50,215 bases of DNA from a virus (IMGVR_UViG_3300017734_000011:1-50215), one strand, 5' to 3'. Shown: positions 10,015 through 45,957, numbered from the stretch's first letter. The notes: generated from the letters alone by a model not told the origin. Program-made: numbers and translations.

Positions 10015-12690
10015 ATGGCTGAGACTGAGCTAGATAGATTTTTTAGAGAAAACAGAATTAAGGAAGCACAAAGCGTAGAGCCAAGTGTTTTTGAAAATCC
10101 TCAGTATGCTTCTATGATATACAATTCTAATGTGCCTCTAAATCAATTAGAAAAGAATATACAACAATCTCAAGGGGCTACATTAGAGCCATACAATCCT
10201 ACCATGAGAGAAAACATAAAGTATGGCATTAGAGACCTTTTAACATACTTAGGCACACCAGAGGGCACAGCAAGCAATGTGGCTAGAGGTTTTATGGGAA
10301 ACCCTAATGCTGAAGCATTTAGTAAGTCAGTAGGTTTGTTAGACGTTGCACCTATAGTAAACATACCATTCTATTTACAAGAAGCTGGAAGAGGATTTCA
10401 GAGGGCACAAAAAGGAACTGATTATATAGCTCCAGCTATAGAAGGTGGTGCTGCTATATTAGAAGGTGCACTAGTAACAAAACCTTTAGCAAAAAAACTT
10501 AAGGGCTTCTCACAATCACTATCGAAAAAGCTTAGAGGCGATACAGATGTATCAACACCAATCGTAGGAACATTACCTCTTAAATCTGAACCTAAAATGT
10601 TAGCAAGTACAAGAAGAATGCCACCAGGTGGTGGTAATGTTATGACAAACCCAAGAAAGTTAGATGAGTTAGGTTTTTTCTATAAATCAGAAGAAGTTGC
10701 TAACAAAATGAAACAAAACAAAGGTAGTGGAGCTGACTTTAAAAAATATTTTCAGAATCAAGGCGTAACTGAAGCCGAGTTAGCTGATACTGGTCTTGAT
10801 GATCTGTTTAAGGTTACAAGCAGACCTATTACAAAAAAGGACATATTACTTAAAATTAGAATGAATAAACTGCAATTATATGAGGATGTTTACCAAGACA
10901 ATCCAGTTGCAGAAGGTTCAAGCCTTATATTTGAGAATATAGCTGACAAAATATCAGAAACACCTTCATATAATAAATTTAGCAATTATGAAATAGATCA
11001 GCTAAATAGAGGTCTAAAAGTATCAGACGAAACACGAGCAGAAACAGAGCTAGTAAATCCTTCAAAAGTTTTGGAAGACACAAAGACAGGATACAGAATA
11101 GTTTATGATGATGAGAGCAACAGCTTTCTTAGTTTTGATAAAGATGCTGATATCTTCGATATTTCCCAATCAGAACAATATAAAATGTTGAGTGATTATG
11201 GCGATGATATGGATGCATTTAGATTTAACGAAATAGCTACTCCAGGCAACATAAACGAATCCATAGTTCAGACAGAAAGTTTTGCTATACAAAATGGCGA
11301 TTATATTGCTAAAGATGCTAGATTTTCAGAGAGCACACAACAAGGTGGCTCTAATTACAGAGAGTTTGTAATAGGTAAGCAATCAAATAACCCAACTTCA
11401 GCAAGATTAGGTGAGTATAGCGATATCGATGATTACCAAAATCCAACTCACTTTCCAAACTATAATCCAATTGTTCACCTTCGTACAAAGGATAGAACAT
11501 TAGAAGATGGAAGCAAAACTCTATATGTAGAAGAATTTCAATCAGATAGAGGTCAGGCAGGAAGACAAAGAGGCTTCGCACCAGGCACTAAATCATATGA
11601 GAAAAATAAACAAAAGTTCGATGAAGTAGATGACGAGTTATTTGGATTAAGAAATTTAAAAATCAAATTAACTGCACCAGAACAAGAGCTTTTGTATTCA
11701 CTGAAGAACCCAGGCAGACCACCAATTAGAGTGCCATTACGAGAAGATGTTTCTGGATTAATGGCTGAAAAATACAATCAAGGTGCAAAAATGCCTGAAA
11801 ACGTATTTGATTACGAAAATAGCAGAATGCCTGATGAATATAAGACTATGACTATGGCTGACTACATAGATTTTGTGAACAGTAATAATTTAGAAGATTC
11901 TATAACAACTTCTTTAGAGCCACTTAAAGCTTTGAGAAAAGCTGGATTTGTAGTTGAGCCTTTTGAAAAAATGCCAAAAGAACTTCAAAGGGATATAGTT
12001 GGCACATTCGTAAGATATACATCACCTAGTAAATATGATTTAAGAGGTAACAATCAATTTTCAGATGCAAAGACATTCGAAGCCTATGCAGACGATTTGA
12101 TAGCAAGAAGATATAGGCTTGACACTAAATTATCTGGCAATATTCCTGGTGGAGATGTGGTTGAAACCACTGAGGGATGGACTAAATTTGGTATAAAAAG
12201 ACTATTGCAGAGAGCAGTTCTAGAAGGTCATGACAGTGTTTCATTCTCACCTGGACAAGTCCAAGTTGATAGATGGGGTAATGAAGGACTACTTGAGCAC
12301 TATGAAGATAAAATACCATCTATGGCGAAGAAGGTTGCAGGAAAAGAAAATGTCAGCAAACAAATTGTAGAAATAAGACCAAAAAATTTACATACAGTCG
12401 TAATGCTAAGGGGTAGTTCACCATTAGATAGAGTGTATCAAGTTAAAGAGGTTGGCACTGATCTACCAGTTGCATCATTTAGAACTTTAGAGCAAGCTCA
12501 AAATAACGCTGATTTTAGAAACGCTACTCAAAAACAATCATCATGGACAATAAAAATTACGCCAGAATTAAAAGAAAAAGTTCTTAAGGGATTATCTCTA
12601 TTTACTATGGGTGCAGGAACTGCAATAGGATTAGAGGAGCAGTTAGGGGCACTAAGCAATATGCCTAGTACCCAAGCTAATGCTACCTAG
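10015..12690 (+). CDS. Large polyvalent-type protein
   Basis: 891 aa. The N-terminus (residues 45-160) holds Ala/Gly-rich amphipathic segments. The key domain spans about 440-760: YREFVIG, HFPNYNPIVHLRTKDR near 479-494 (His488), YVEEFQSDRGQ at 504-514 (Glu507, Asp511), and GWTKFGIKRLLQRAVLEGHD at 721-740 followed by VSFSPGQVQVDRWG. This H-x-R-x-x-DR / EE-x-QSD / KR-L-A signature matches a domain repeatedly found in large polyvalent proteins. A hydrophobic tail ends the chain. Likely virion-carried; biochemical activity unknown. The stop overlaps a convergent lipoprotein gene by 3 bp at CTAG. Confidence 0.75.
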   Translation: MAETELDRFFRENRIKEAQSVEPSVFENPQYASMIYNSNVPLNQLEKNIQQSQGATLEPYNPTMRENIKYGIRDLLTYLGTPEGTASNVARGFMGNPNAEAFSKSVGLLDVAPIVNIPFYLQEAGRGFQRAQKGTDYIAPAIEGGAAILEGALVTKPLAKKLKGFSQSLSKKLRGDTDVSTPIVGTLPLKSEPKMLASTRRMPPGGGNVMTNPRKLDELGFFYKSEEVANKMKQNKGSGADFKKYFQNQGVTEAELADTGLDDLFKVTSRPITKKDILLKIRMNKLQLYEDVYQDNPVAEGSSLIFENIADKISETPSYNKFSNYEIDQLNRGLKVSDETRAETELVNPSKVLEDTKTGYRIVYDDESNSFLSFDKDADIFDISQSEQYKMLSDYGDDMDAFRFNEIATPGNINESIVQTESFAIQNGDYIAKDARFSESTQQGGSNYREFVIGKQSNNPTSARLGEYSDIDDYQNPTHFPNYNPIVHLRTKDRTLEDGSKTLYVEEFQSDRGQAGRQRGFAPGTKSYEKNKQKFDEVDDELFGLRNLKIKLTAPEQELLYSLKNPGRPPIRVPLREDVSGLMAEKYNQGAKMPENVFDYENSRMPDEYKTMTMADYIDFVNSNNLEDSITTSLEPLKALRKAGFVVEPFEKMPKELQRDIVGTFVRYTSPSKYDLRGNNQFSDAKTFEAYADDLIARRYRLDTKLSGNIPGGDVVETTEGWTKFGIKRLLQRAVLEGHDSVSFSPGQVQVDRWGNEGLLEHYEDKIPSMAKKVAGKENVSKQIVEIRPKNLHTVVMLRGSSPLDRVYQVKEVGTDLPVASFRTLEQAQNNADFRNATQKQSSWTIKITPELKEKVLKGLSLFTMGAGTAIGLEEQLGALSNMPSTQANAT

Positions 12691-22535: not shown

Positions 22536-24146
22536 ATGGCAAGCACATATGTTAATGATCTCAGGCTTAATGAATTAGGCACTGGCGATGCTAGTGGTAC
22601 TTGGGGAACTATAACTAACCTTAACTTAGAATTGATAGGTGAGGGATTAAGTTATGGTACTCAAGATTGTTTTACCTCAAATGCAAACGCTACAACCACT
22701 GTAGCAGATGGAGCAAGTGATCCAGCAAGAGCGATGTACTTCAAGGTAACATCTTCTGCCACATTAACTGCAACAAGAACATTAACTATAGCTCCAAATA
22801 CTGTATCAAGACTGCAATTTATAGAAAACGCCACAACTGGTGGTCAGTCTATAAACATATCTCAAGGCAGTGGGGCAAATGTAACAATTCCTACTGGAGC
22901 AACTAAGGCAGTTTACATGGATGGTGCAGGCAGTGGAGCAGCAGTCACAGACGCCTTTGCTGACTTAAATGTTGGAACTATAGATGCCACAACATTACAA
23001 ATAGGTGGCACATCCATTACTGCAACTGCAACAGAGCTAAACTACAATGATATTTCTACATTAGGTCAAGTACAAGCATCAAAGACAGTGACTGCTGATA
23101 GTAGTGGATTTGTTAACTTTGGTGATAATCAAAAAATACGTTTAGGTACAGGTAATGATTTAGAGATTTATCACAATGGCAGTAACAGTTATATAGACGA
23201 TACTGGTACTGGTAATTTATATATTAGAGCATCTGATTCTGTTAGATTACAGAGTTCAACTGGAGAACAAGGTGTTTTAGTTACTTCAAATGGAGCAGTA
23301 ACACTTTATTATGACAACGCCTCTAAACTCGCCACCAAATCAGATGGTGTAGACATCACAGGAGAACTACAGTCAGATAGTCTAGATGTAGATGGCAATG
23401 CAGATATTAGTGGTCAGCTAACTATGGGTGGCAATGTCAATCTGCAAGATAGCGACTACTTACAATTAGGTGCAAGCCAAGACCTACAGATTTATCATGA
23501 TGGTTCTAACTCATTCATAGATGAGAGAGGTACTGGTGATTTATACATAAGAGCAAGTGATGATTTAATTTTAGGAAAATACACTGGCGAAAGTATGATT
23601 GTTTGTAATGTTGATGCAAGTGTAGACCTTTATTATGATAATGCTGTAAAACTTAGCACAGCAACAGATGGTGTATATGTAACTGGAAGAATTCAATCAT
23701 CGACTGGTGTATTTCAAGGTGCTAATACTCTAGATAAAATAGTAATTGGTTCTGATGACATTGATTTTTACATCAACAACAGTAACGAATTTCGTATGCA
23801 ATCAGATGGTGACTTCCATGCAGATGGCGACATAATTGCTTTCTCAACAACTATATCAGACGAAAGACTGAAGACAGACATTGAGAAGATAGAAAATGCT
23901 ACAGACAAAGTAAGTCAGCTAAATGGTTACACATTCACATACAAAGCTGATGGCAAGAAATCAGCAGGTGTTATTGCACAAGAAGTAGAGAAGGTTCTAC
24001 CAAGTGCAGTAAGTGAAAAAGAGTTGCCATTAAAAATGGATGATGGCGTAGCATATAAGACTGTTCAATACGACCAAATCATAGGTCTGCTAATTGAATC
24101 AATCAAAGAACTCAAGCAAGAAATAAATGAATTAAGAGGTAATTAA
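22536..24146 (+). CDS. Tail fibre/spike with S74 intramolecular chaperone
   Basis: 536 aa. The N-terminal anchor (MASTYVNDLRLNELGTGDAS) is followed by beta-repeat modules; DLEIYHNGSNSYIDDTGTG, LYIRASD occurs near residues 208-230 and a second copy (DLQIYHDGSNSFIDERGTG) near 314-336. Residues 441-536 are a peptidase-S74/intramolecular chaperone domain: SDERLK with Ser441 and Lys446 as the self-cleavage dyad, AGVIAQEVEKVLP, and a C-terminal helix. The domain trimerises and releases itself from the mature fibre. Host recognition is the likely job. Confidence 0.92.
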   Translation: MASTYVNDLRLNELGTGDASGTWGTITNLNLELIGEGLSYGTQDCFTSNANATTTVADGASDPARAMYFKVTSSATLTATRTLTIAPNTVSRLQFIENATTGGQSINISQGSGANVTIPTGATKAVYMDGAGSGAAVTDAFADLNVGTIDATTLQIGGTSITATATELNYNDISTLGQVQASKTVTADSSGFVNFGDNQKIRLGTGNDLEIYHNGSNSYIDDTGTGNLYIRASDSVRLQSSTGEQGVLVTSNGAVTLYYDNASKLATKSDGVDITGELQSDSLDVDGNADISGQLTMGGNVNLQDSDYLQLGASQDLQIYHDGSNSFIDERGTGDLYIRASDDLILGKYTGESMIVCNVDASVDLYYDNAVKLSTATDGVYVTGRIQSSTGVFQGANTLDKIVIGSDDIDFYINNSNEFRMQSDGDFHADGDIIAFSTTISDERLKTDIEKIENATDKVSQLNGYTFTYKADGKKSAGVIAQEVEKVLPSAVSEKELPLKMDDGVAYKTVQYDQIIGLLIESIKELKQEINELRGN

Positions 24147-25436
24147 ATGGCAATTACTCCTTCTGGACAAGTAAAGTTTTCAGATTTAAGAACTGAGTTT
24201 ATAGGGGGGTCAGGTCAAGTACCACTAGGCAGTTTATATAGAGGTGGTTCTAATATTAGAGCTAAAAGTCCTGACAACAATGCTACTAATGATGCCGCAG
24301 ATGTGCCTACAAGTGGTGAATTGCAATTAAGCGATTATTATGGAACTGCTAAAAGTTTTACATTTACATACTCTTCTAATGCAACAGATCAAAACCTATC
24401 TAGTTTATTTGGGTCTACAGATTATGGAGTAGATTATCCAAAAAATGTTGTAATACCTTCTTCAGTTACTTTAGGCACAAATAACACTTCTGAATATGCT
24501 CTTGAGGCAAATAGTGGTGGTGCTGGAACAATTACTATTACAAATAATGGAAGTATTATCGGTGCTGGAGGAGGAGGTGGCTCTGGTGGAAGTGCGAATA
24601 GTGGAACTGGTGGTAATGGTTCTTCTGGAGGAGATGCTTTTAAGGCATCAGTGGCAGTAACTTTAGTTAATAATGGAAGTATGTTAGCTGGAGGTGGAGG
24701 TGGCTCTGGTGGAGGTGGTGGAGGTGTTGGTGGAGATTTAAGTCAGCAACAACAGACAACAGTTACACAAGGTCCGTTCCTTGGCGGTCCAGGTAATAAT
24801 TTCTATGCGTGGGCAACAGCACAGTCGTTTGGAAGCTATTCTGTTCCTTATGGATTCCCATCTCAGCTTGGCACTCAAACGTCTGGAAGATCAAGAGCAC
24901 AATTTGGTCCCGCTACTGGTGCTCCTAGTCTTCCTGAAGGTCCGCTGAATCGAACTTCATTTACTCAAGGTCAGTATACTTATAATAGGGGATCACAATC
25001 AGGAGGTAGGCAAAATGTAAATAAAGAGCAAGGTGAAAATCAATTTCAAATAGGCTACAGAACTACATATAGGGTTTTTAGAACCTTTCCACAATCACAA
25101 CAAACACAAGCATCAGGAGGTTCTGGAGGTGCTGGAGGTGCTGGAGGATTAGGCAGAGGCTTTAATAACCAACCAGGAGGAGATCCAGGGTCTGGAGGAA
25201 GTGGAGGGTCGCCAAGTACTGCAGGAGATGGTGGAACTGGTGGTACTGGAGGAGCAGGTGGTGGATATGGTCAAGCTGGAAGTGCTGGGGCTACTGGAGC
25301 AACGGGAACACCATCAACAACATCAGGAACTGCAGGAGGTTCTGGTGGTTCTGGGGGTTCTAGAGGAAATTACATTGAAGGTTTTTCAAACGTAACTTTT
25401 ACAAATAATGGTACAGTCGCAGGAGGCACAGAATAA
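24147..25436 (+). CDS. Glycine-rich tail fibre or tip adhesin
   Basis: 429 aa abutting the S74 fibre gene. N-terminus ITPSGQVKFSDLRTEFIGG and LQLSDYYGTAKSF is a common phage-fibre anchor. Two blocks of dense Gly tracts (about residues 130-200 and 320-410) surround a Gln/Phe-rich middle. Such Gly-rich tips can form polyglycine-II sandwiches, as in S16 gp38. The variable Gly-rich loops probably decide receptor choice. The assignment is by composition and position. Confidence 0.85.
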   Translation: MAITPSGQVKFSDLRTEFIGGSGQVPLGSLYRGGSNIRAKSPDNNATNDAADVPTSGELQLSDYYGTAKSFTFTYSSNATDQNLSSLFGSTDYGVDYPKNVVIPSSVTLGTNNTSEYALEANSGGAGTITITNNGSIIGAGGGGGSGGSANSGTGGNGSSGGDAFKASVAVTLVNNGSMLAGGGGGSGGGGGGVGGDLSQQQQTTVTQGPFLGGPGNNFYAWATAQSFGSYSVPYGFPSQLGTQTSGRSRAQFGPATGAPSLPEGPLNRTSFTQGQYTYNRGSQSGGRQNVNKEQGENQFQIGYRTTYRVFRTFPQSQQTQASGGSGGAGGAGGLGRGFNNQPGGDPGSGGSGGSPSTAGDGGTGGTGGAGGGYGQAGSAGATGATGTPSTTSGTAGGSGGSGGSRGNYIEGFSNVTFTNNGTVAGGTE

Positions 25437-25816
25437 TGGCAACATATGTTTGGACAATAAACACTTTACATACTAAAGATATTACAAAAAATGGAACTAC
25501 ATATAATGATGCAATACTTAGGGTAGAAGCAACTTTAACTGGAACAAGTGAAACTATTAACAGTATAACTTCTGAAGCAGGTTTTGATTTAGATATAAAT
25601 GTAGATAATATAGACAATAGCTTTACTGTATATGGTTCTGTTACAAAAGCAAATGTAATAAGCTGGATTGAAGGTAGGGTTGGGTCTACCCAATTAGCTG
25701 AGATTAAAACTGAAATTGAAAACAACATAGACTTTAAAGAAAAAATTGATGGATCAATTGCTAAAGGTTCAACTGATTCAGATGGTAATTTTACTGCATC
25801 TTTTCCCTGGTCATAA
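25436..25816 (+). CDS. Small tail-associated protein
   Basis: 126 aa overlapping the fibre stop by 1 bp. MATYVWTINTLHTKDITKNG, a beta-rich core and TASFPWS end. Resembles a small family often adjacent to phage fibre genes (DUF7936-like in my memory). It is the last gene before the oxygenase cassette. Confidence 0.7.
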   Translation: MATYVWTINTLHTKDITKNGTTYNDAILRVEATLTGTSETINSITSEAGFDLDINVDNIDNSFTVYGSVTKANVISWIEGRVGSTQLAEIKTEIENNIDFKEKIDGSIAKGSTDSDGNFTASFPWS

Positions 25817-25819
25817 CAT

Positions 25820-25848
25820 TTGACATACATTTTTGTTTCTTATAGATT
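25820..25848 (+). promoter_or_regulatory. Promoter of the oxygenase cassette
   Basis: TTGACA (25820-25825), 17-bp spacer, TAGATT (25843-25848); TATAGA at 25841 with a 15-bp spacer is an alternative. It sits in the 53-bp gap between the tail gene and the first oxygenase, so the cassette can be expressed separately from the late operon. Confidence 0.7.
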
Positions 25849-25869
25849 TATCTATAGGGTAGCAAGAAT

Positions 25870-26409
25870 ATGATAAACCAAAAACTTAAACTTTTAGAAA
25901 AAGACCATGCTAAGTGTTTTTCAGAGCACATGGCGTATATTGAAAAATTAATTAATCCCTCCACAGAACCCAGGTTTACTGGAACAAAAAGCGTTTATTC
26001 TGATCCAGTTTTTGAAAATTTGTTACACTTTATTAAACCAAAAGTAGAAGAAGCGTATGGTAAAGAACTAATTCCAACGTATTCTTTTTGGAGAACTTAC
26101 TATAAAACACAAGATTGTCCTCCACATACAGACAGACAATCATGTGAGGTAAGTGTCACTTTATGTATAGACGCATCACATAAAGAAGATATGTGGGCAA
26201 TAAATGTAGACGATAATGTTTTTAAATTAAATACTGGAGAAGGTGTAATTTACAAAGGATGTGAACAAGAGCACTGGAGACATGAATTACAATATGATTG
26301 GCACAGACAAGTTTTTTTACATTACATAGAAAAAGATGGTCAGTTTTATCCAGAGTTTAAATATGATGGTAGACCAAGTTTATATGAAAATATGTCGGTA
26401 TCAACATGA
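25870..26409 (+). CDS. 2OG-Fe(II) oxygenase-like protein 1
   Basis: 179 aa. The facial triad candidates are His86-x-Asp88 (CPPHTDRQSCEVSVTL) and His135 (GCEQEHWRH), with a basic residue near Arg146 before VFLHYI. The GVIYKGCE-HWR segment is characteristic of a phage/bacterial oxygenase subgroup. The reaction would be hydroxylation or related oxidation with 2-oxoglutarate and O2; the substrate is unknown. Stop overlaps the next ATG (ATGA), so it begins a coupled operon. Confidence 0.8.
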   Translation: MINQKLKLLEKDHAKCFSEHMAYIEKLINPSTEPRFTGTKSVYSDPVFENLLHFIKPKVEEAYGKELIPTYSFWRTYYKTQDCPPHTDRQSCEVSVTLCIDASHKEDMWAINVDDNVFKLNTGEGVIYKGCEQEHWRHELQYDWHRQVFLHYIEKDGQFYPEFKYDGRPSLYENMSVST

Positions 26410-27083
26410 ATTATCCAAGTTTACAAGTAAATAATTTTTTTGAAAAACCTAGTTACATTAAAGAGTTTGCTGAATCACTAGCATACGAAAAACCACCTGG
26501 GAATTATCCAGGACTAAGGGCAGAAGCAAAAGATGAGCAGAGCCAAGATATTATACAAAAAATTAATTGGAGAATCTTAAGACTTTTATACCCCGACTAT
26601 AATCAATTCAAAAACTTGACATATGAAACGACTTCTTCTTTTCAAAAAATAAGGTATGAAGATGCAGAGGCTCATATTTTAAATAAAGAACATCCAGGAA
26701 AAGGGTGGGTACATGGAGATCATGAGTCAAAGTTTACTGCTATAATATATCTTTCAGAAAACAACTTTTGTGGCACTGCTTTGTATTCCCAAAAAAGTGG
26801 ATTTAATCATGCTACATGTGATCCCACTGCAAAAATTGAATATTATAATAAAAGTCCTAATTTAAATATGGATGATTATTATAAAGAATTAAATAATCAT
26901 TTAAATCAGTTCAAATTAGATTGTTTATTTAATTCTTCTTACAACAAGTTAATAGGCTTTGATGGCTCAAACCTACATGGAGCAATGTTAAACTTAAAGC
27001 CAAATGAAGAAAGACTTACGTTTATTAGTTTTTTTAACATAAATGCTCCATACTATCCAATACCAGAAATGAGAAGAACATGA
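26406..27083 (+). CDS. 2OG-Fe(II) oxygenase-like protein 2 (DUF6445-like)
   Basis: 225 aa. GWVHGDHESKFTAIIYL gives His103-x-Asp105; SNLHGAM gives the distal His191; EERLTFISFF supplies Arg203 for 2OG. The overall plan resembles DUF6445-type proteins. It does not resemble oxygenase 1 beyond the core, so it is not a recent duplicate. Substrate unknown. ATGA overlaps on both sides. Confidence 0.82.
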   Translation: MNYPSLQVNNFFEKPSYIKEFAESLAYEKPPGNYPGLRAEAKDEQSQDIIQKINWRILRLLYPDYNQFKNLTYETTSSFQKIRYEDAEAHILNKEHPGKGWVHGDHESKFTAIIYLSENNFCGTALYSQKSGFNHATCDPTAKIEYYNKSPNLNMDDYYKELNNHLNQFKLDCLFNSSYNKLIGFDGSNLHGAMLNLKPNEERLTFISFFNINAPYYPIPEMRRT

Positions 27084-27643
27084 AGAGAAATATTATCGTA
27101 GCTAAAAACGCTATTTCTTCAGATTTATGCAATAAAATAATACAAGTAGCACAATCAGGATTTGCATCAGCGTTAACTGATGGAGGCAGAAACCAACCCA
27201 CCATAAGAAAAAGTGAAACAAGTTTTCTTTGTGGAAGTATAAAATATTTAGATATATACACCCCCATACTTCAGTTAATTAGTAAAGTTAATAATGAGTT
27301 TTATAATTTTGATTTATTAGAACCAGAAAATTTTCAAATAACAAAGTATGATGAAAAAAATCAAGGTTTTTATAAACCACATGAAGATGGTATTTACGAT
27401 AATGTACCATCAAATGAACTAGTAAGAAAACTTTCTGTTTCTATTCAACTAACAGCACCAGAATATTATGAAGGTGGAACGTTTGAGTTCCCAGATGATA
27501 AAGAAAAATTTGTAGTTGAAGACTCTTTAAGCCAAGGAACAGCTATATTTTTCCCTTCTTACATGAAGCATGGGGTTGTTCCAGTAACTAAAGGAACAAG
27601 GTATAGTTTAGTATGTTGGGTTCGTGGTCATAATTTTAGGTAG
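27080..27643 (+). CDS. 2OG-Fe(II) oxygenase 3 (PKHD/prolyl-hydroxylase-like)
   Basis: 187 aa, the clearest of the five. GFYKPHEDGIY gives His101-x-Asp103; RKLSVSIQLTAPEYYEGGTF is the strand before the jelly roll; GTAIFFPSYMKHGVVPVTKG gives His164; TRYSLVCWVRG gives Arg174. This matches the PKHD-type/prolyl 4-hydroxylase-like group. Phage members are often thought to act on proteins. All three metal ligands are present, so it should be active. Confidence 0.9.
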   Translation: MKRNIIVAKNAISSDLCNKIIQVAQSGFASALTDGGRNQPTIRKSETSFLCGSIKYLDIYTPILQLISKVNNEFYNFDLLEPENFQITKYDEKNQGFYKPHEDGIYDNVPSNELVRKLSVSIQLTAPEYYEGGTFEFPDDKEKFVVEDSLSQGTAIFFPSYMKHGVVPVTKGTRYSLVCWVRGHNFR

Positions 27644-27649
27644 AGTAAA

Positions 27650-28339
27650 ATGAACAAAAATGAATTTTTAGAGGCTTGCAAAAAAGAAACATCTTATGGT
27701 GATTTTTTTTATGCTGTATATGACGAATTTTTACCTTGGCAAGAATTTGGTCACATGAAAGACTATATGGAAAGTGAAATGGGTTGGATTATTGCTCCAA
27801 GCATAAATTACAATGATGTTTCTAATAACGATTTTTACATGGTAAATTCTATTTTTAACAATGAAAGACTTGCAAGAGATCAATGGAATACTTCTACTAA
27901 TGTAGAACCTTTTACAGCTTTAGCTTCTAAACTATACATTAATGCTTTAACGAGAATTAAGTGCAATTTTTATGTGGGTGCTAAAGAACATTATATTCAT
28001 GCACCTCATATTGATTACGCATATTACACAGTTGGTGCTTTATTTTTTCTTAGTGATTGTGATGCACCTACTTATTTAGCAGATGGCACAGAAATAGAGT
28101 CAAAAGCAAATAGAATACTAATATTTAATTCAGCTACTCCTCATTCTAGTTCAGCACCTACAAATGTTCCATATAGAATGACAATAAATTTTAATTATTT
28201 TGGTCGTGGTATTAACCCTATATATTTAAGAAACAGACCAAGGTCACAACCAACAATGGTATCTGAGAATTATCCCTTTTTAGATGATCGTCTAAATGAG
28301 TTAAAAAAGTTGCAAAAGTTAAATGAATCAAGCAACTGA
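27650..28339 (+). CDS. 2OG-Fe(II) oxygenase-like protein 4
   Basis: 229 aa. YIHAPHIDYA gives His120-x-Asp122; TVGALFFLSDCDAPTYLADG follows; FNSATPHSSSAP gives His165; PYRMTINFNYFG gives Arg176. A C-terminal extension of about 50 residues is basic. The only gene of the cassette separated from its predecessor by a gap (6 bp); it overlaps the next by 17 bp. Substrate unknown. Confidence 0.83.
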   Translation: MNKNEFLEACKKETSYGDFFYAVYDEFLPWQEFGHMKDYMESEMGWIIAPSINYNDVSNNDFYMVNSIFNNERLARDQWNTSTNVEPFTALASKLYINALTRIKCNFYVGAKEHYIHAPHIDYAYYTVGALFFLSDCDAPTYLADGTEIESKANRILIFNSATPHSSSAPTNVPYRMTINFNYFGRGINPIYLRNRPRSQPTMVSENYPFLDDRLNELKKLQKLNESSN

Positions 28340-29024
28340 TTTACTTTTATTTTCTGGAGGCATAGACAGCACAGTATTACTTAAACACTTTCTACAAGAA
28401 AGAAAAAAAGTAAGAGTTTTGTATATTGAGTTAGGTTGGGCAGAAAGGATGCATGGTAGAGTGCGTTTACAAAATATTGCTGCAAATAATATTCTTCAGT
28501 ATATGAGTAAAAAATATGGTGATTTTGAATATTCACAAGCTACTGTAATGACAACATTAAATGAAGAAAACGAGAGCACCTATTTTGGCACAGATAATCA
28601 ATGGTGTGCTTTTTATGGAGGAATGTTCTGTCAAAATTATAATATTAATCGCATGTGGATGGGTCATTATAGTTTTTCTGATGAAATATTAAGAAAAAAA
28701 TATACAAAACACGAAAACGACACAGATGGTTATGGTTTTCATTGTGAACCAGGAGACTATTCAAAGAAAAAGCTAGGGTTTTATGTTGATGTTGGTGCTA
28801 GACTACAAAATCTAAACATAGACCTTTGTACTCCAGCTATTGTATACAAAGGTGAAGGTGTAGATAGATTTAAAAATAAAAAAGAATTGTGGGATACATT
28901 AGAAATAGATTTGAAAAAAATGGTTAGAAGTTGCCTTTCAACTGAATGGCACTGTAATGACTGTCCTAAATGCAACAACCACAGAAAAATGAATATATAT
29001 GATGATAAAGGTATACCACTATGA
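28323..29024 (+). CDS. QueC-like PP-loop ATPase
   Basis: 233 aa. PP-loop motif LLFSGGIDSTVLL with SGGIDS at 11-16, and a C-terminal four-Cys set (Cys204, Cys211, Cys214, Cys217 in VRSCLSTEWHCNDCPKC). QueC, which converts 7-carboxy-7-deazaguanine to preQ0, has the same SGGxDS and C-x-C-x2-C-x2-C zinc motif. The middle is divergent (KKYTKHENDTDGYGFHCEPG), so the substrate may differ. No queD, queE or folE is seen in this window. Part of the coupled cassette. Confidence 0.75.
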   Translation: MNQATDLLLFSGGIDSTVLLKHFLQERKKVRVLYIELGWAERMHGRVRLQNIAANNILQYMSKKYGDFEYSQATVMTTLNEENESTYFGTDNQWCAFYGGMFCQNYNINRMWMGHYSFSDEILRKKYTKHENDTDGYGFHCEPGDYSKKKLGFYVDVGARLQNLNIDLCTPAIVYKGEGVDRFKNKKELWDTLEIDLKKMVRSCLSTEWHCNDCPKCNNHRKMNIYDDKGIPL

Positions 29025-29644
29025 AGAAAAACGTGCATGTGAAAAACTTTGTTATGACTATAGATAATATGCTTAGTTCTGAGATTTGTGATTTTATTGT
29101 TGAGAATATGAAAAATCCAGAAAAGAATTATAAACAACAAACAACTATAGACAACAGAAAAGGTAGACAAGATACACAAAGGGCAGGAACATTATATTTA
29201 ACACATTTAACTGGTCTACAAGTTTATCAAAATATAAACTTTGGTGGTAACTTAGGTAATATATTTACTAATTGTTTAGTAGAAGGTTTGCAAGTGTATT
29301 CCAATACAATGGCAGAAGCCTTGAAAGAAATATCGGATAATAATATTGTTGATTTTACAGAATTTAAATTTCAAGAAACAACTCAAAGTGGTGGCTTTCA
29401 TGATTGGCATTATGAAAGTGCTAGTCAGCAAACTAAACAAAGATTTTTAGTTTGGAGTATATTTTTAAACGATGTTGAAGAAGGTGGTGAGTTGGAGTTT
29501 TTGTATCACAGTATGAGAGTTAAACCAAAAAAAGGTAGCATGGTGCTATTCCCATCCTCTTTTACTCATACTCATAGGGGTAATCCACCTATATCCAATA
29601 CCAAATATATTGCTACGGGCTGGTACTATGCCTTCTCAGAATAA
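29021..29644 (+). CDS. 2OG-Fe(II) oxygenase-like protein 5 (HxE variant)
   Basis: 207 aa. GGFHDWHYESAS gives His130-x-Glu132 (Glu in place of the usual Asp); RFLVWSIFLNDVEEGGELEF follows; FPSSFTHTHRGNPP gives His183 or His185; Lys195 in NTKYIATGWYY replaces Arg as the 2OG anchor, as in prolyl 4-hydroxylases. Similar HxE/Lys forms exist in marine phages. ATGA overlap with the QueC-like gene. Confidence 0.82.
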   Translation: MKKNVHVKNFVMTIDNMLSSEICDFIVENMKNPEKNYKQQTTIDNRKGRQDTQRAGTLYLTHLTGLQVYQNINFGGNLGNIFTNCLVEGLQVYSNTMAEALKEISDNNIVDFTEFKFQETTQSGGFHDWHYESASQQTKQRFLVWSIFLNDVEEGGELEFLYHSMRVKPKKGSMVLFPSSFTHTHRGNPPISNTKYIATGWYYAFSE

Positions 29645-30776
29645 TGAAACAATTACCATACCTGTACATAGAGTCAGTACCATTACAAGCTCTAGTATGG
29701 AAGATTTTAGAATTAAAAATAATTATGGCAGAGAAGGCACACCCACAACTGATTTATTAGCTAATCGTTTATCTGATCTTTACAAATCAGATGGTTGTGT
29801 TTTGACACCTTCTGGAATGACATCTATCACACTTGCACTAATGTCAATCTTAAAATCAAAAGATCATATTTTGATACCAGATTGTATATTAGGCTCTGCA
29901 AGAAGATTCATAGAACAAGAGCTTCCAAGGTTAGAAATTACATATGATTTCTACAATGTTAGAGATTTAAAACAATTAGAAACACTTATAAATAATAATA
30001 CAAAAGCAATATATATAGAAAGTCCAGGCACATATACGTTTGAAATAACAGACATAAAAAAAGTTATAGAAATCTGCCAAAAACATAATTTAAAATCTAT
30101 AGCAGATAATACATGGGGAACAGCTTTACACTTTAATCCATTTGATTTTGGTGTAGATATAGTTGTTGAAGCTATTAGTAAATACGCTTCAGGTCACTCT
30201 GACGTAATGATGGGAGTAGCTTTGGCTAATGAAAACAATTTATTACAATTAAAAAGATGGTATAAAAACTGTGGGATATGTGTCAGTTCAGATGATGCTT
30301 ACTTAGTTCTAAGAGGCTTAGATACATTGTCTATGAGATTAGAAAAATCTTCAAAAAACAGTATAGAAATAGCTAAGTATTTAGAAAAAAATAAACAAAT
30401 AAAACAAGTTATTCATCCTGCTCTACGTCAACATCCAGATCATAAATTATGGAAAAAATATTTTAAAGGTTCTTGTGGTGTGTTTGCTATAGAGTTCCAA
30501 GATAAAATTGATGAATATGCTATAAATCAATTAGCAAATAACTGTAAACTATTTAATATTGGCACATCTTGGGGTGGACACCATAGTTTGTTAGCAACCA
30601 CAGATGTTTCTAAATGCAGAAATTTAAGTACAAGTTATGTACCTTCTGGTCAATATTTAAGAATTTATACTGGAACAGAGGAAGCAAAAGACTTAATAAA
30701 TGATTTAGATAATGCTTTTAATAAAATGAAAGAATACATTTATACAAGAGTTGGTGATGCCCTTTTGTTTTGGTAA
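29628..30776 (+). CDS. Cystathionine lyase/synthase-type PLP enzyme
   Basis: 382 aa from ATG 29628 (TTG 29610 is the longer alternative); overlaps the previous gene by 17 bp. Cys/Met-metabolism fold type I: YGREGTPT at 33-40, VLTPSGMTSITLAL at 58-71, YIESPGTYTFEI at 129-140, ADNTWGTAL at 159-167 and the PLP-binding Lys185 in AISKYASGHSDVMMG. Substrate could be a sulfur amino acid or an activated homoserine. It closes the cassette and may supply or transform a small building block for its neighbours. Confidence 0.87.
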   Translation: MPSQNNETITIPVHRVSTITSSSMEDFRIKNNYGREGTPTTDLLANRLSDLYKSDGCVLTPSGMTSITLALMSILKSKDHILIPDCILGSARRFIEQELPRLEITYDFYNVRDLKQLETLINNNTKAIYIESPGTYTFEITDIKKVIEICQKHNLKSIADNTWGTALHFNPFDFGVDIVVEAISKYASGHSDVMMGVALANENNLLQLKRWYKNCGICVSSDDAYLVLRGLDTLSMRLEKSSKNSIEIAKYLEKNKQIKQVIHPALRQHPDHKLWKKYFKGSCGVFAIEFQDKIDEYAINQLANNCKLFNIGTSWGGHHSLLATTDVSKCRNLSTSYVPSGQYLRIYTGTEEAKDLINDLDNAFNKMKEYIYTRVGDALLFW

Positions 30777-31341: not shown

Positions 31342-31532
31342 CTGTATTCATGCTAGTCTGTTATTTGGGGGCTAATATGGAATTTATATACTTTAAAAAC
31401 ATAAATGACTGTTTGTCCTATAAAAATCAATTGCATAACCAAATTATTAAAAAAAATGATAAAGAGCAAGTTTATCAATGCATGTGTAAATTGGTAGCTA
31501 ATGTAGATACAAATAAAATGAGGGTGTACTAA
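31338..31532 (+). CDS. Small Cys-containing protein of the lysis block
   Basis: 64 aa; GTG start overlaps the previous stop (GTGA), with ATG 31350 as the alternative. Short hydrophobic N-terminus (VFMLVCYLGA), then FIYFKNINDCLSYKNQLHNQ and YQCMCKLVANVD, ending MRVY. The paired Cys suggest a periplasmic disulfide. A similar small protein recurs in marine phages near holins as I recall. Confidence 0.72.
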   Translation: MTVFMLVCYLGANMEFIYFKNINDCLSYKNQLHNQIIKKNDKEQVYQCMCKLVANVDTNKMRVY

Positions 31533-31927
31533 TGTTAACTGCATTGATCGGGCCAGTATCTAATTTACTTGGCAAATTCATAGAAGATAAAGACATGAAG
31601 AACAAGTTGGCACATGAAGTGGCAACTATGGCTGAAAACCACGCTCAAGAACTAGCTAAAGGTCAGTTAGAAATAAACAAAGTCGAAGCCCAACATAAAT
31701 CTATATTTGTGGCTGGCTGGAGACCCTTCATTGGTTGGACATGTGGTATCGCTTTATGTTGGCATTTTGTCCTAGCTCCTGTTACAATATTCTTATGTGC
31801 ATATTTAGGAGTAACTATACCAGATTTGCCAAGTTTTGATATGGGGTCACTTATGACCGTTTTGATGGGAATGCTGGGACTTGGCGGGCTCAGAACATAT
31901 GAGAAGCAAAAAGGATTAACTAAGTAA
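31532..31927 (+). CDS. Holin, 3-TM GTA-type
   Basis: 131 aa, coupled to the previous gene (TAATG). Amphipathic N-terminus, then HKSIFVAGWRPFIGWTCGIA, a second helix (FVLAPVTIFLCAYLGV) and a third helix (LMTVLMGMLGLGGLRTYEK). The VAGWRPFIGW and GLGGLRTYEK signatures are those of the Holin_3TM family of gene-transfer agents and phages. It forms membrane lesions that release the lysozyme encoded next. Confidence 0.92.
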   Translation: MLTALIGPVSNLLGKFIEDKDMKNKLAHEVATMAENHAQELAKGQLEINKVEAQHKSIFVAGWRPFIGWTCGIALCWHFVLAPVTIFLCAYLGVTIPDLPSFDMGSLMTVLMGMLGLGGLRTYEKQKGLTK

Positions 31928-42510: not shown

Positions 42511-43281
42511 ATGGTTGTCGCAGAAATTTTAACTGGTATAGCATTAGTCAAAAAAAGCGTTGACTTTATAAAAGAAAACATCTCCACAGTTCAAGATATC
42601 CAAGGCATAGCAAAACAAATAGATGGCTTTTTTCTAGGCGAAGAGCAGATGAATAAAGGTCAAGGCAAGGGCATGTCTATTATGGAGCAATTTGGCTCAG
42701 TCGAATCAAGTGCTACAGATTATATAGACAGAAAGCTTCTTGAGGAGAAACGTCAGGAGTTAAAGAATTTAATCAATCTTAGATTTGGGCCGCAGGCATG
42801 GGATCAGATACTTGCAGAACGTGCAGAAAGAATTAATAAAGCCAAAGAAGCACAACGACAAGCTAGAATAGAAGCTAAGAAAAGACAAGATGAGCTACTT
42901 GAAACTGTAAAATGGGTAGGAATTACTTTTATATGTATTGGTGTGTTGTTAGGTGGTTTAGTAGTAGGCGTAAAAGTATTTGCTAAAGGTAATACTTATC
43001 AGTCAAAAAACACACAATTTAAAGGACTTACTAAACAACAACAACTGAATCAAGGTTTAGTAACGCCACCTACAATGACACTATGCAGACTTATGAAGCA
43101 GAAAGTTTACAAAGATAAAATGGCTTGTATCTATCGAGGTGCAAATAAAACCTATGAAATGGAATTTACTGATATTCGAGTGGGATGCCCAAAAAGCTAT
43201 CGTTGTGTGTTAAATGAAAATGGCAAAGAACCATCTATTGATGATATTATGGATAGCCTCAGATCAATAAAGGGTGATTAG
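42511..43281 (+). CDS. Membrane-anchored virion/ejection protein
   Basis: 256 aa. Two hydrophobic/amphipathic regions: near the N-terminus (EILTGIALVKKSVDFIKENI) and a clear transmembrane helix at about 132-157 (TVKWVGITFICIGVLLGGLV). A Lys/Arg/Glu/Ala helix (about 82-130) precedes it; the C-terminal half has four Cys, including MACIY and YRCVLN. Last gene of the plus structural operon; overlaps the convergent minus gene by 23 bp with no terminator in between. Confidence 0.72.
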   Translation: MVVAEILTGIALVKKSVDFIKENISTVQDIQGIAKQIDGFFLGEEQMNKGQGKGMSIMEQFGSVESSATDYIDRKLLEEKRQELKNLINLRFGPQAWDQILAERAERINKAKEAQRQARIEAKKRQDELLETVKWVGITFICIGVLLGGLVVGVKVFAKGNTYQSKNTQFKGLTKQQQLNQGLVTPPTMTLCRLMKQKVYKDKMACIYRGANKTYEMEFTDIRVGCPKSYRCVLNENGKEPSIDDIMDSLRSIKGD

Positions 43282-43855
43282 TGGCGTTATATTTAGGGTT
43301 ATATGATTTTCTGTCTTCACCTATATACTCATGTGAATAACATAATCTGTCTTTTTCTATAGTGTGGTGATTTATATAACTATTACCATTGGTGCTTTTA
43401 CTTCTATCTAGTAGGTTAGCTGAAGTAGCTTTCCATATAGGCGAACTTTCTCTGTATAGCCCCATCCTCATGTGTGATGTTTTGCTAAAATATCTGTAAC
43501 CTTGCTCAATATGTAAGTCAGCTATAGCGTCAGAAAATCGAGTTCCAATGCCTAGCCCTTGAAAGTCTGGTATTATTACAGTTCTGCATTCTCTCCATTT
43601 CTTTCTAATATCGCCTTCATATAAAGGTGGAGTTTTGCCTGGAAAACTTATAGTTGCACTAAAACCAATAATATTACCTTCCCATACTGCAAAGAAGCAT
43701 CTAGTAGATAAAGGCAAGTCCTCGCTCAGATAATGATGTTTTTTAAATACATCCCATAGCCTTCTGTCGCCATGAATTATATCTACATTTATTTTAGGCT
43801 TAGTAAGTTTTGTAGATAGATATCTAGATTTACCTTTGTGATATTCCCATTTCAT
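43259..43855 (-). CDS. GNAT-domain protein (duplicate of the fusion's C-terminus)
   Basis: 198 aa, TAATG-coupled to the fusion gene. The whole length aligns with the C-terminal half of the 381-aa protein by eye: KKHHYLSEDLP, PPLYEGDIRKKWRECRTVII, PDFQGLGIGTRFSDAIAD with the acetyl-CoA loop QGLGIG, and RLCYSHEYIGE. More than half of positions look identical. Probably an acyltransferase working with, or derived from, the fusion. No ATPase domain. Ends in a convergent overlap with the plus operon. Confidence 0.82.
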   Translation of the reverse strand: MKWEYHKGKSRYLSTKLTKPKINVDIIHGDRRLWDVFKKHHYLSEDLPLSTRCFFAVWEGNIIGFSATISFPGKTPPLYEGDIRKKWRECRTVIIPDFQGLGIGTRFSDAIADLHIEQGYRYFSKTSHMRMGLYRESSPIWKATSANLLDRSKSTNGNSYINHHTIEKDRLCYSHEYIGEDRKSYNPKYNATNHPLLI

Positions 43856-45000
43856 TAGAACAAACTTTGTTGTGGGTCATCGGGTCGATTATACTTAGGG
43901 TCATAGGACTTGTTGTTTTCCCCTATGTATTCATGAGAATAACAAATCCTATCTCTTTCTAATGGTATAAGACGCTTCTTATGGTCATGTATATCACTAC
44001 TTCTATCTTTTAAATTACTAGCACTCGCTCTCCATAGAGGTGACTTTTGTCTGTACTCACCCATCCTAATATGCGAGGTCTTAGAATAGTAACGAACATT
44101 TTTCTCTATCATCATATCTGCAATAGCGTCAGATAGCCTTACACCTATCCCTAGCCCTTGAAAGTCTGGAAGGACTACTGTTCTAGCCTCACGCCATTTG
44201 AGACGCTTGTCGCCTTCGTAAAGAGGTGGTGTCCAACCTGGCAAAGACATTACAGAAGCAAAACCAATAATCCTATCGTTCCATACTGCCAAATAGCAAT
44301 GTGCAGAGGCAGGGAGGTCTTCAGTTAGATAGTGATGCTTTTTAAATAATTCCCAGTGGTTTCTGTTCCCTTTGACAATTTTAACTTCAATGGGTTGCCG
44401 AACTAACCCCCTTGATGCGAATCGCTTCACATCAGTGTTAAATACCCAATCTGGCTGCAGCCATTCTAATATATCATCATGACAAGTAGCTAATACAATA
44501 TTCTTAAGACCTTTACGTTTTACATACTTATACAAAGACAACGAACATGATTTAGCTACGTCTCTGTTTACAACTGAGGTAAACTCATCAATGACAATAT
44601 TGCTACCTAGCCTTCTAGCTAGGTCACATCTAAACCCCTCACCATTAGACAATACATGACGAGGTTTAGCCCAAGTAGGAACAGTATTAAGACCAACTGC
44701 ACCAAATCGTTCTATGGCGTCTTCTACGCTATCAAAATGAGATGCTATAGTTCTGTTATTATCCCAAGTCAATTCTTCTTCTTTACCATACTTAGCAAGC
44801 ATAGAGGACTTACCACTACCACTTGAGCCATATATAACACCAATAGAAAAGTCTTCTTTAAAAGGCTCAAAATGAGGTAACTCAAATTCAGTAACCCCAT
44901 CAAATTTATAATCAAAGTTCTTAAATATCTCTTTATCTATATCAGTTAGCTCTACCTCACTTCTTAATATAGTTTTCTTGTATCCATATAAATCTTCCAA
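43855..45000 (-). CDS. ABC-ATPase fused to a GNAT acyltransferase
   Basis: 381 aa. TTG start at 45000 chosen because AAGGAGG lies 6-7 nt upstream. Residues 1-200: ABC/SMC-type ATPase with Walker A GSSGSGKS (58-65), signature LSNGE (117-121), Walker B IVIDEF (135-140) and switch His174 (ATCHDD). Residues 205-381: GNAT domain with PDFQGLGIG (279-286). The fusion is known in phages and bacteria, with no established function that I know of. DNA or protein acylation is conceivable. Followed directly by a GNAT-only copy. Confidence 0.85.
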   Translation of the reverse strand: MEDLYGYKKTILRSEVELTDIDKEIFKNFDYKFDGVTEFELPHFEPFKEDFSIGVIYGSSGSGKSSMLAKYGKEEELTWDNNRTIASHFDSVEDAIERFGAVGLNTVPTWAKPRHVLSNGEGFRCDLARRLGSNIVIDEFTSVVNRDVAKSCSLSLYKYVKRKGLKNIVLATCHDDILEWLQPDWVFNTDVKRFASRGLVRQPIEVKIVKGNRNHWELFKKHHYLTEDLPASAHCYLAVWNDRIIGFASVMSLPGWTPPLYEGDKRLKWREARTVVLPDFQGLGIGVRLSDAIADMMIEKNVRYYSKTSHIRMGEYRQKSPLWRASASNLKDRSSDIHDHKKRLIPLERDRICYSHEYIGENNKSYDPKYNRPDDPQQSLF

Positions 45001-45010
45001 AATATCCTCC

Positions 45011-45036
45011 TTAAAGTAAAGGGAGCTTTCGCTCCC
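45011..45036 (-). terminator. Hairpin/terminator downstream of DUF932 gene
   Basis: On the minus strand GGGAGC-GAAA-GCTCCC (stem 45031-45036 with 45021-45026, GNRA loop) followed by TTTACTTTAA. It lies in the 42-bp gap between the DUF932 gene and the ATPase-GNAT gene, whose Shine-Dalgarno follows. It may terminate or attenuate transcription. Confidence 0.75.
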
Positions 45037-45042
45037 CTATTA

Positions 45043-45957
45043 TTATGCATTTTCGAGTTGTTTCCACTTATTACTATTAATCATAGACCTAACATCGTTT
45101 TGTCTACGTTGCTGAACTATATGATTGTTAGTGCTATTAGCTTTTACATCACCTAAGTGTGTAGACCATGCAGTTGCAGACTGATATGCACACCAAAGAG
45201 AGCCTTTAGCACCATTTCTGCCATAATCACCCTTACCATGAATTTGAGCTACCTCAGCCTCATATAAACCCATTAAATGATATAATTGTTTTTTGTTAGT
45301 GTCTGACTGACCACTAGCTAATTTAATTTCGTTAGCTTGGCTTTTAGCTATAGTAGATTTGAACAGATCGATAACTTGATCATCTTCTACTTTAGTATCC
45401 CACCACTTGTTGAAAGTCTGAGCTTCATTAGTAATCGCACTAACTGCATTCTGTATCTTTTTGTTAGAGGCGTCTACGTTGAAGTGTGTAGTATGTCTGT
45501 TAGCAGTATAAGCAATCTTTTGACCACTTACTAAGGTATTGAAACATACATGGTTCATCCAACCAAAGAAGGACTGAAACTTCCATCTAGCGTTGTAACT
45601 ATTTCTAGCTACAAACTTAAGTGACAAATCATGGTCGCCAACTTGAGTGTTATGTGCTGGAAGTAACAATTCCATCTTAGCCATAGCACCATTTTCGTAG
45701 GTATCTACTTTGATTTCGTGATCTGTAAAATCTAGACCACCACTTTTCATAGCCTCGATAGCTCCACCAAATGCATCTATATGATGTATTGGCTTGTATC
45801 TAGAACCTACGATACCAAGAGGATCACCTTCTTGCTGACCATAGGTATTAAGGCGAACTACTTTTCTGCCCATATGTGAAGGGATACCTTGGATATCCCT
45901 CACATCGATTTTAAATGATACGTCTTGTAACGCTTCTTCCATTTTAGTATCTAACAT
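45043..45957 (-). CDS. DUF932 family protein
   Basis: 304 aa, TAATG overlap with the upstream gene. Contains LGIVGSRYKPIHHIDAF, LSLKFVARNSYN, FGWMNHVCFNTL and a C-terminal AYQSATAWSTHLGD, matching the phage/plasmid DUF932 family. Function unsettled; such genes are frequent in early phage regions. Transcribed from the promoter at 46376. Confidence 0.88.
   Translation of the reverse strand: MLDTKMEEALQDVSFKIDVRDIQGIPSHMGRKVVRLNTYGQQEGDPLGIVGSRYKPIHHIDAFGGAIEAMKSGGLDFTDHEIKVDTYENGAMAKMELLLPAHNTQVGDHDLSLKFVARNSYNARWKFQSFFGWMNHVCFNTLVSGQKIAYTANRHTTHFNVDASNKKIQNAVSAITNEAQTFNKWWDTKVEDDQVIDLFKSTIAKSQANEIKLASGQSDTNKKQLYHLMGLYEAEVAQIHGKGDYGRNGAKGSLWCAYQSATAWSTHLGDVKANSTNNHIVQQRRQNDVRSMINSNKWKQLENA

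Follow-up and report, generated by a model that had tools for sequence, protein, structure and literature searches.

The phage systems closest to the locus described here are of two kinds. The gp38 adhesins of T-even-like phages such as S16 and PP01 consist of a polyglycine scaffold with hypervariable receptor-binding loops, and their enterobacterial loci, to our knowledge, contain no enzymes of the type discussed below. T4-like cyanophages and pelagiphages (syn9, S-RSM4, S-CREM1 and Mosig) carry tandem genes for 2-oxoglutarate (2OG)- and Fe(II)-dependent oxygenases, often near glycine-rich open reading frames (ORFs). It has been suggested that phage 2OG oxygenases serve 2OG/nitrogen signalling or DNA repair (PMC3037559, PMC11288001), a view which does not predict linkage to an adhesin. 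The window analysed in this study, the whole 50,215-nt virus record IMGVR_UViG_3300017734_000011 of IMG/VR, was found to possess a gp38-like adhesin followed by a small DUF7936 protein and a cassette of seven genes, which encode five oxygenases (ox1 to ox5), a PP-loop ATPase resembling QueC and a MetC-family enzyme dependent on pyridoxal phosphate (PLP) (Table 1). The adhesin has a predicted fold matching those of gp38 (9v85, 6f45) but is longer (429 aa), marine and coupled to DUF7936 and the oxygenase operon. Homologues of all five oxygenases occur in the cyanophage and pelagiphage clusters, whereas the QueC-like/PLP pair was not found there. The cassette may be a post-translational tailoring operon for the tail-tip adhesin, an interpretation to which we give even chances.

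The linkage was surveyed with the adhesin, and not the cassette, as the seed, using the best 80 of 156 loci, a sample biased towards closer relatives. The order adhesin, DUF7936, ox1, ox3 and ox4 was unbroken in approximately 50 distinct viral loci and was present in every contig which runs past the cassette, with ox2 or other genes inserted within this fixed order. The genes thus co-occur consistently across the surveyed loci, and the possibility that they never do so, raised in the initial annotation of this DNA, did not hold. The core of the module consists of ox1, ox3 and ox4, with the PP-loop, PLP and other oxygenase genes being exchangeable accessories. Among 37 complete modules the PP-loop gene was present in 15 (an upper estimate, as some of the modules came from a search seeded with the PP-loop protein) and the PLP gene in five, always together with the PP-loop gene. 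As this count required ox4, the universality of ox4 is taken from the gene-order survey instead. The gene coupling from which joint function had been read is real, but it does not amount to an obligatory seven-gene pathway, since only ox1, ox3 and ox4 are always present. Most of the other accessory proteins also resemble small oxygenases. Accessory cluster c11 (229–251 aa; loci L062, L068, L069 and L102) is a non-oxygenase family located after ox4 or the PP-loop gene.

The adhesin and the enzymes have moved between phages as one unit, because the module matches phages with unrelated backbones while the backbone of the window matches phages without the module. The head, portal and terminase genes are 73–87% identical to those of Roseobacter phages CRP-901 and CRP-902, the genomes of which lack the module and carry another fibre gene. 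The module proteins are 75–100% identical to those of four other loci (L003, L007, L009 and L005), whose remaining genes are mostly unmatched or below ~55% identity, with the exception of part of the S74 fibre of L003 (73%). The cassette is accordingly not self-contained, as had been proposed at first; the unit begins with the adhesin at 24147 and takes in DUF7936 and a promoter of its own, with which it moves between phages. The accessory set was also found to track the variable region of the adhesin, both with scaffold distance controlled (partial Mantel r = 0.39, p = 2e-4, n = 33) and with ox3 distance controlled (r = 0.32, p = 2e-4), partial Mantel tests being potentially anticonservative.

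An AlphaFold2 model of the adhesin from 26 homologues had a mean pLDDT of 79, with the glycine-rich blocks at about 90–97. The only significant Foldseek match in the PDB was PP01 gp38 (7.7e-4), with S16 gp37–gp38 next at 0.016, and a library of viral models gave as its best match a Rhizobium phage protein with a Gp38 domain (2e-22). In 50 aligned adhesins the glycine scaffold is common while the middle (~aa 211–310) is divergent, a combination which, from the model and the alignment, suggests a receptor-binding tip. The product of 24147–25436 has the gp38-like combination of a glycine-rich scaffold of the polyglycine II type with hypervariable segments, and its location at the tip is predicted.

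Related arrangements were found in isolated phages. A tblastn search of isolates with DUF7936 and the adhesin gave no match, the adhesin query being largely of low complexity and masked by the filter. In Mosig, HTVC033P, S-RSM4, S-SSM5, ACG-2014g and MS29, glycine-rich proteins of other sequence adjoin ox1 homologues, which in most cases are accompanied by ox3 and ox4. In Mosig a protein with 23% glycine is followed by six oxygenase-like genes, and in HTVC033P two proteins with 34% glycine are followed by ox3, an ox6-like gene and ox1. The ox1 gene lies at most 4 kb from a glycine-rich ORF in six of nine genomes, compared with 0.89 expected at random (Fisher p = 2e-4; p = 0.003 at the loosest glycine threshold), p being indicative as the nine isolates are mostly related Kyanoviridae and not independent; the distance in the remaining three is 8–13 kb. 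The statement in the initial annotation that published phage pathways lack this set agrees with the PP-loop protein, which was present in no isolated phage of the collection searched, but not with the oxygenase clusters, which isolates also carry near glycine-rich proteins. In S-CREM1 (L119, 53526–64780) two glycine-rich ORFs and an annotated tryptophan halogenase precede an uninterrupted run of eight oxygenase genes and one annotated JmjC gene. The oxygenase run of Mosig (L118:7102–12187) continues into an annotated heme oxygenase and phycocyanobilin:ferredoxin oxidoreductase; Mosig is a SAR11 myophage, the host of which is not a phototroph with phycobilins.

These distributions bear on the possibility that the oxygenases are passengers, which travel with adhesins at an exchange hot spot and serve 2OG/nitrogen signalling or DNA repair, as a published proposal for cyanophages has it (PMC3037559). 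Frequent recombination at adhesin loci and the variable accessory content would agree with this. However, passengers would not be expected to form a constant core of three genes, always in the same order and immediately behind the adhesin, in all modules surveyed, the association recurs with other glycine-rich adhesins in other phage groups, and ox1, ox3 and ox4 are mutually different and yet all keep their ligands, which makes a passenger role rather unlikely.

The presence of five distinct oxygenases, first proposed from visible H-x-D/E...H ligands, was borne out by alignments of 9–21 diverse homologues per family, in which the iron-ligand HxD/E...H triad is invariant in all five families. 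The distal His of ox5 is H183 or H185, both being invariant. An Arg or Lys of the 2OG site is found ~10–12 residues past the distal His and is invariant in ox2 (R203), ox3 (R174), ox4 (R176) and ox5 (K195); in ox1 this position is taken by R146, as read in the window sequence, its column being outside the listed invariant ones. Pfam, PHROGs and NCBIfam identified ox3 and ox5 as clear 2OG-Fe(II) oxygenases and ox2 as DUF6445. The profiles of ox3 and ox5 match prolyl 4-hydroxylase (P4H) structures in the PDB, while profile search gave no PDB relative for ox1, ox2 or ox4, for which a double-stranded beta-helix fold is predicted from motifs and family assignments. The folds expected by the initial annotation were thus recovered in part, namely for ox3 and ox5 through P4H structures and for the PP-loop protein at low model confidence. 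The PHROG/RefSeq names "ferrochelatase" (phrog_2954, ox1), "minor coat protein" (phrog_1644, ox2) and "DNA endonuclease V/denV" (phrog_274, ox4) were judged misleading, because these families carry invariant 2OG-oxygenase ligands. The same names appear in isolates L115, L117, L118 and L120–L124 and look wrong across many marine phage records.

Action of the enzymes on the adhesin is the best explanation for the strict gene order, the joint mobility, the match between accessories and variable region and the recurrence with other adhesins. It is supported further by the likeness of ox3 and ox5 to enzymes with protein substrates, the prolyl 4-hydroxylases, and by Cap9, the nearest fold to the PP-loop protein, which modifies a protein (PMC13279940). 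The glycine-rich fibre next to the cassette, initially one of several candidate targets, is now the best supported of them. The linkage itself is firm, whereas the adhesin as substrate, the residues, the order of reactions and the chemistry of the PP-loop and PLP enzymes are inferred.

Several points weigh against a tailoring role, in addition to the relatedness of the isolates and the behaviour of the Mantel tests given above. Genes of the ox5 type are also found apart from adhesins, next to RecA in Melnitz and in an early-gene region of RHph_Y65, and no glycine-rich gene adjoins the ox2-type loci of P-SSM2 and P-HM2. A link of all oxygenases to adhesins was therefore rejected, as ox5- and ox2-type genes are also found in replication/early regions. 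Adhesin modification is not generally required, since gp38-like adhesins of enterobacterial phages work, as far as we know, without such enzymes. Conjugation of the Cap9 type to an N-terminal Gly is unsupported and unlikely because the adhesins begin with MA, MT or MP and not MG; the DUF7936 protein of the window begins with MATY. The cassette also has its own promoter, so that co-expression with the adhesin is not assured: a −35/−10 pair scoring at least 10/12 precedes ox1 in 14 of 49 distinct gaps, compared with 1.9 (maximum 6) in shuffles.

Such a promoter would permit expression apart from virion assembly, as would suit enzymes which act on the host surface, oxidising or otherwise altering the receptor, or which produce a small molecule. 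New virions would then not stick to the dying cell, or other phages would be kept out, and the enzymes would in this case too be coupled to the specificity of the adhesin. This reading likewise predicts the observed linkage and the co-variation with the variable part of the adhesin, and a halogenase or carbamoyltransferase adjoins the cluster in S-CREM1 and S-SSM5, as in small-molecule or glycan tailoring. However, the closest matches of ox3 and ox5 are protein hydroxylases, and library scans of the cassette recognised no glycosyltransferase, transporter or secretion signal. Modification of the host is consequently considered unlikely, although the least so of the alternatives.

The PP-loop protein was noted at first for its SGGIDS motif and QueC-like set of four cysteines, and both are conserved: SGG[IVP]DST and C204-x6-C211-x2-C214-x2-C217 are invariant in 15 homologues (44–89% identical). 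The first Cys spacer is six, compared with eight in the zinc motif of QueC, C(x)8CxxCxxC, and the YPDC motif, which QueC reportedly cannot do without (PMC13329287), was in none of the 15. The score against the TIGR00364 equivalog was 19.6 bits, where the cut-off is 150. The protein would thus share the family fold of QueC only, with a role as preQ0 synthase being unlikely because the canonical YPDC is absent. Its AlphaFold model is weak (pLDDT 63), with Cap9 (1.3e-5), YcfA (6e-5) and QueC (7e-5) being the best solved Foldseek matches; Cap9 again led the list in a profile search of PDB sequences, although its E of 0.025 is not significant. Bacterial genomes gave only weak, short-segment matches. 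Two weak PP-loop profile matches (27% identity over 110 residues) on a 3.2-kb contig of a Hwanghaeella metagenome-assembled genome (L104) are possibly a distant relative or a broken QueC. Canonical queuosine/7-deazaguanine synthesis was rejected, as the protein lacks the QueC motif and falls short of the equivalog cut-off and no partner was identified among the window proteins scanned, and so was a defence system of the Qat or cyclic oligonucleotide-based antiphage signalling (CBASS) type, for which PADLOC gave only a weak QueC match.

The same protein raises the possibility of nucleic-acid modification, in which a QueC-like enzyme and AlkB/TET-like oxygenases would hypermodify phage DNA (7-deazaguanine, oxidised bases). 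Membership of the QueC Pfam family is just above threshold, and phage DNA with 7-deazaguanine exists, according to literature cited in PMC13329287. Apart from the lack of YPDC, however, no QueD, QueE, FolE or DpdA was recognised among the window proteins scanned, which did not comprise every ORF, the oxygenases are nearest to protein hydroxylases, and the genes lie in the tail-fibre/lysis region. Modification of DNA is thus very improbable.

The identification of a cystathionine-lyase-type enzyme with its PLP lysine was confirmed by the match to Pfam Cys_Met_Meta_PP and by Lys185, which lies in SKYASGHSD. K185, S314–W315 and R345 are invariant and align to Escherichia coli MetC. The stacking Tyr111 of MetC is replaced by Leu88, invariant in six homologues, and the protein falls below every curated lyase/cystathionine beta-lyase equivalog cut-off. 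The eight viral relatives found are all within the module or on contigs cut beside it. In L002 and L003 the gene is gone, its first codons (MPSQNN) being fused to an unrelated 82-aa ORF after ox5 (around 11288–11536), which indicates a recent loss of the PLP gene while the PP-loop gene and ox5 stay. Tens of records of the phage collection also matched the PLP enzyme at ~30% identity, but these, many of them short and unannotated, look like host DNA and were set aside.

The pairing of these two enzymes could also suggest auxiliary metabolism, with an amino-acid-derived metabolite being made or degraded in the host by the PLP lyase, the oxygenases and the carboxylate-activating enzyme together; it might serve to supply nitrogen or sulfur, or be an antimetabolite resembling 6-thioguanine. 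The resemblance of the PP-loop model to YcfA of 6-thioguanine synthesis, a pathway using a PLP desulfurase and PP-loop pair (PMC7994395), would agree with this, as would the restriction of the PLP gene to modules with the PP-loop gene. However, the PP-loop and PLP genes are optional while the core oxygenases and the adhesin are not, and the PLP clade was found solely inside the module, so that a metabolic role is quite unlikely.

If the cassette is a tailoring operon, the gp38-like adhesin would be made with DUF7936 as a helper and the 2OG-Fe(II) dioxygenases would be expressed from the promoter at 25820–25848. Conserved adhesin positions would be hydroxylated by ox1, ox3 and ox4, a reaction proposed because of their family membership, with P210, P315 and P343 being candidate prolines for the P4H-like ox3. 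Marks fitted to the variable receptor-binding region might be added by ox2 and ox5, the PP-loop enzyme could adenylate a carboxylate and attach a further group, and the MetC-like enzyme would probably give the nucleophile (ammonia, sulfur or an amino-acid-derived unit). The outcome would be a chemically diversified receptor-binding tip. Possible precedents for the PP-loop and PLP steps are sulfur transfer of the YcfA type and conjugation of the Cap9 type. More tentatively, and at somewhat less than even chances, marine phages may possess a general, exchangeable enzyme system which diversifies receptor-binding proteins, after their synthesis on ribosomes, by hydroxylation at several sites, with further conjugation in this lineage by a QueC-like ligase fed by the PLP enzyme, so that host range would depend not only on sequence but also on post-translational chemistry.

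The seven ORFs of the cassette are tightly coupled (25870–30776, plus strand), with overlaps of 4, 4, 17, 4 and 17 bp and one gap of 6 bp, in agreement with the initial annotation. Its start at 25820 was too early, being the −35 box of the conserved promoter, and the first gene opens at 25870. The PLP gene has an ATG at 29628, its TTG frame opening at 29610. All seven genes occur in the same order in independent contigs at 44–100% protein identity and so are not chance ORFs. No tRNA or Rfam elements were found in scans. An antisense ORF of 131–132 aa (28781–29179, minus strand) opposite the PP-loop/ox5 junction is open in L003, L007–L009 and L016–L019 too, and is probably a shadow of conserved coding. 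Elsewhere in the window are a GTA_holin_3TM holin (31532–31927), a phage lysozyme (31927–32379) and, on the minus strand at 43259–45957, two GNAT acetyltransferase-domain genes with a DUF932 gene.

Table 1. Features of the adhesin module and its upstream neighbour in the window.
Feature	Position	Strand	Evidence
Peptidase_S74 (intramolecular chaperone) tail fibre, upstream module neighbour	22536..24146	+	Pfam PF13884 7.5e-19; tail-fibre PHROGs; upstream in surveyed loci
gp38-like Gly-rich tail-tip adhesin (predicted), polyglycine scaffold, hypervariable middle aa ~211–310, proposed substrate	24147..25436	+	AlphaFold2, Foldseek, alignment of 50
Small DUF7936 protein, invariably located between adhesin and ox1	25436..25816	+	Pfam PF25590 1.1e-9; conserved position
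Conserved sigma70-like promoter TTGACA-17-TAGATT, gap before ox1	25820..25848	+	Aligned gaps
ox1, 2OG-Fe(II)-type oxygenase, core	25870..26409	+	phrog_2954 1.4e-42; invariant H86xD88, H135
ox2, DUF6445/phrog_1644 oxygenase-like, accessory	26406..27083	+	PF20043 1e-9; invariant H103xD105, H191, R203
ox3, prolyl-4-hydroxylase/PKHD-like 2OG oxygenase, core	27080..27643	+	PF13640 2.8e-14; H101xD103, H164, R174; PDB P4H 3itq 3e-7
ox4, 2OG oxygenase-like, core	27650..28339	+	phrog_274 4.7e-34; invariant H120xD122, H165, R176
PP-loop ATPase, divergent QueC/Cap9-like, accessory	28323..29024	+	PF06508 6.6e-5; invariant SGGxDST and Cys4; Foldseek Cap9 1.3e-5
ox5, prolyl-4-hydroxylase-like 2OG oxygenase with HxE, accessory	29021..29644	+	PF13640 6e-15; H130xE132, H183, H185, K195; PDB P4H 3itq 5.6e-12
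PLP enzyme of the MetC/cystathionine beta-lyase family, accessory, found only with PP-loop	29628..30776	+	PF01053 6.8e-96; PDB MetC 2.3e-66

Each enzyme of the module, taken singly, belongs to a known superfamily. The PP-loop protein shares SGGxDS and the four cysteines with Cap9 (type IV CBASS, protein deazaguanylation) and QatC, but at below 20% identity, with a different pocket motif and with candidate substrates lacking an N-terminal Gly, and no CD-NTase, Cap10 or Qat partners were recognised in neighbourhood scans. It also recalls the PP-loop and PLP sulfur-mobilising pair of YcfA/TgsA–TgsB 6-thioguanine synthesis, from which the locus differs in that no NUDIX gene or efflux partner was recognised and the PP-loop gene here occurs without the PLP gene as well. 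The PLP enzyme shares the PLP Lys, the SW motif, the carboxylate Arg and the YGR motif with cystathionine beta-lyase MetC, the substitution of Tyr111 being a mark of the phage clade. The ox3 and ox5 profiles match prolyl 4-hydroxylases of Bacillus anthracis (3itq/5hv0) and Chlamydomonas (2jig) over the catalytic domain, while the phage enzymes are shorter and occur in sets of three to six, with HxE in place of HxD in ox5.

Full-text searches of the open-licence literature gave no description of phage oxygenases which modify an adhesin, and what is new in comparison with these systems is the type of locus, in which an adhesin and its putative tailoring enzymes are conserved together. Few unexplained genes are as common in marine phages as those for 2OG-Fe(II) oxygenases, and a strict, transferable linkage to an adhesin gives these enzymes a concrete and directly testable substrate. 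If the proposal is true, enzymatic tailoring of a receptor-binding protein would join the known ways in which phages diversify host recognition, and a general diversification system would account for the large number of these oxygenases in marine phages. The locus also places a QueC-family enzyme, a member of a family now being found to modify proteins, in a new context.

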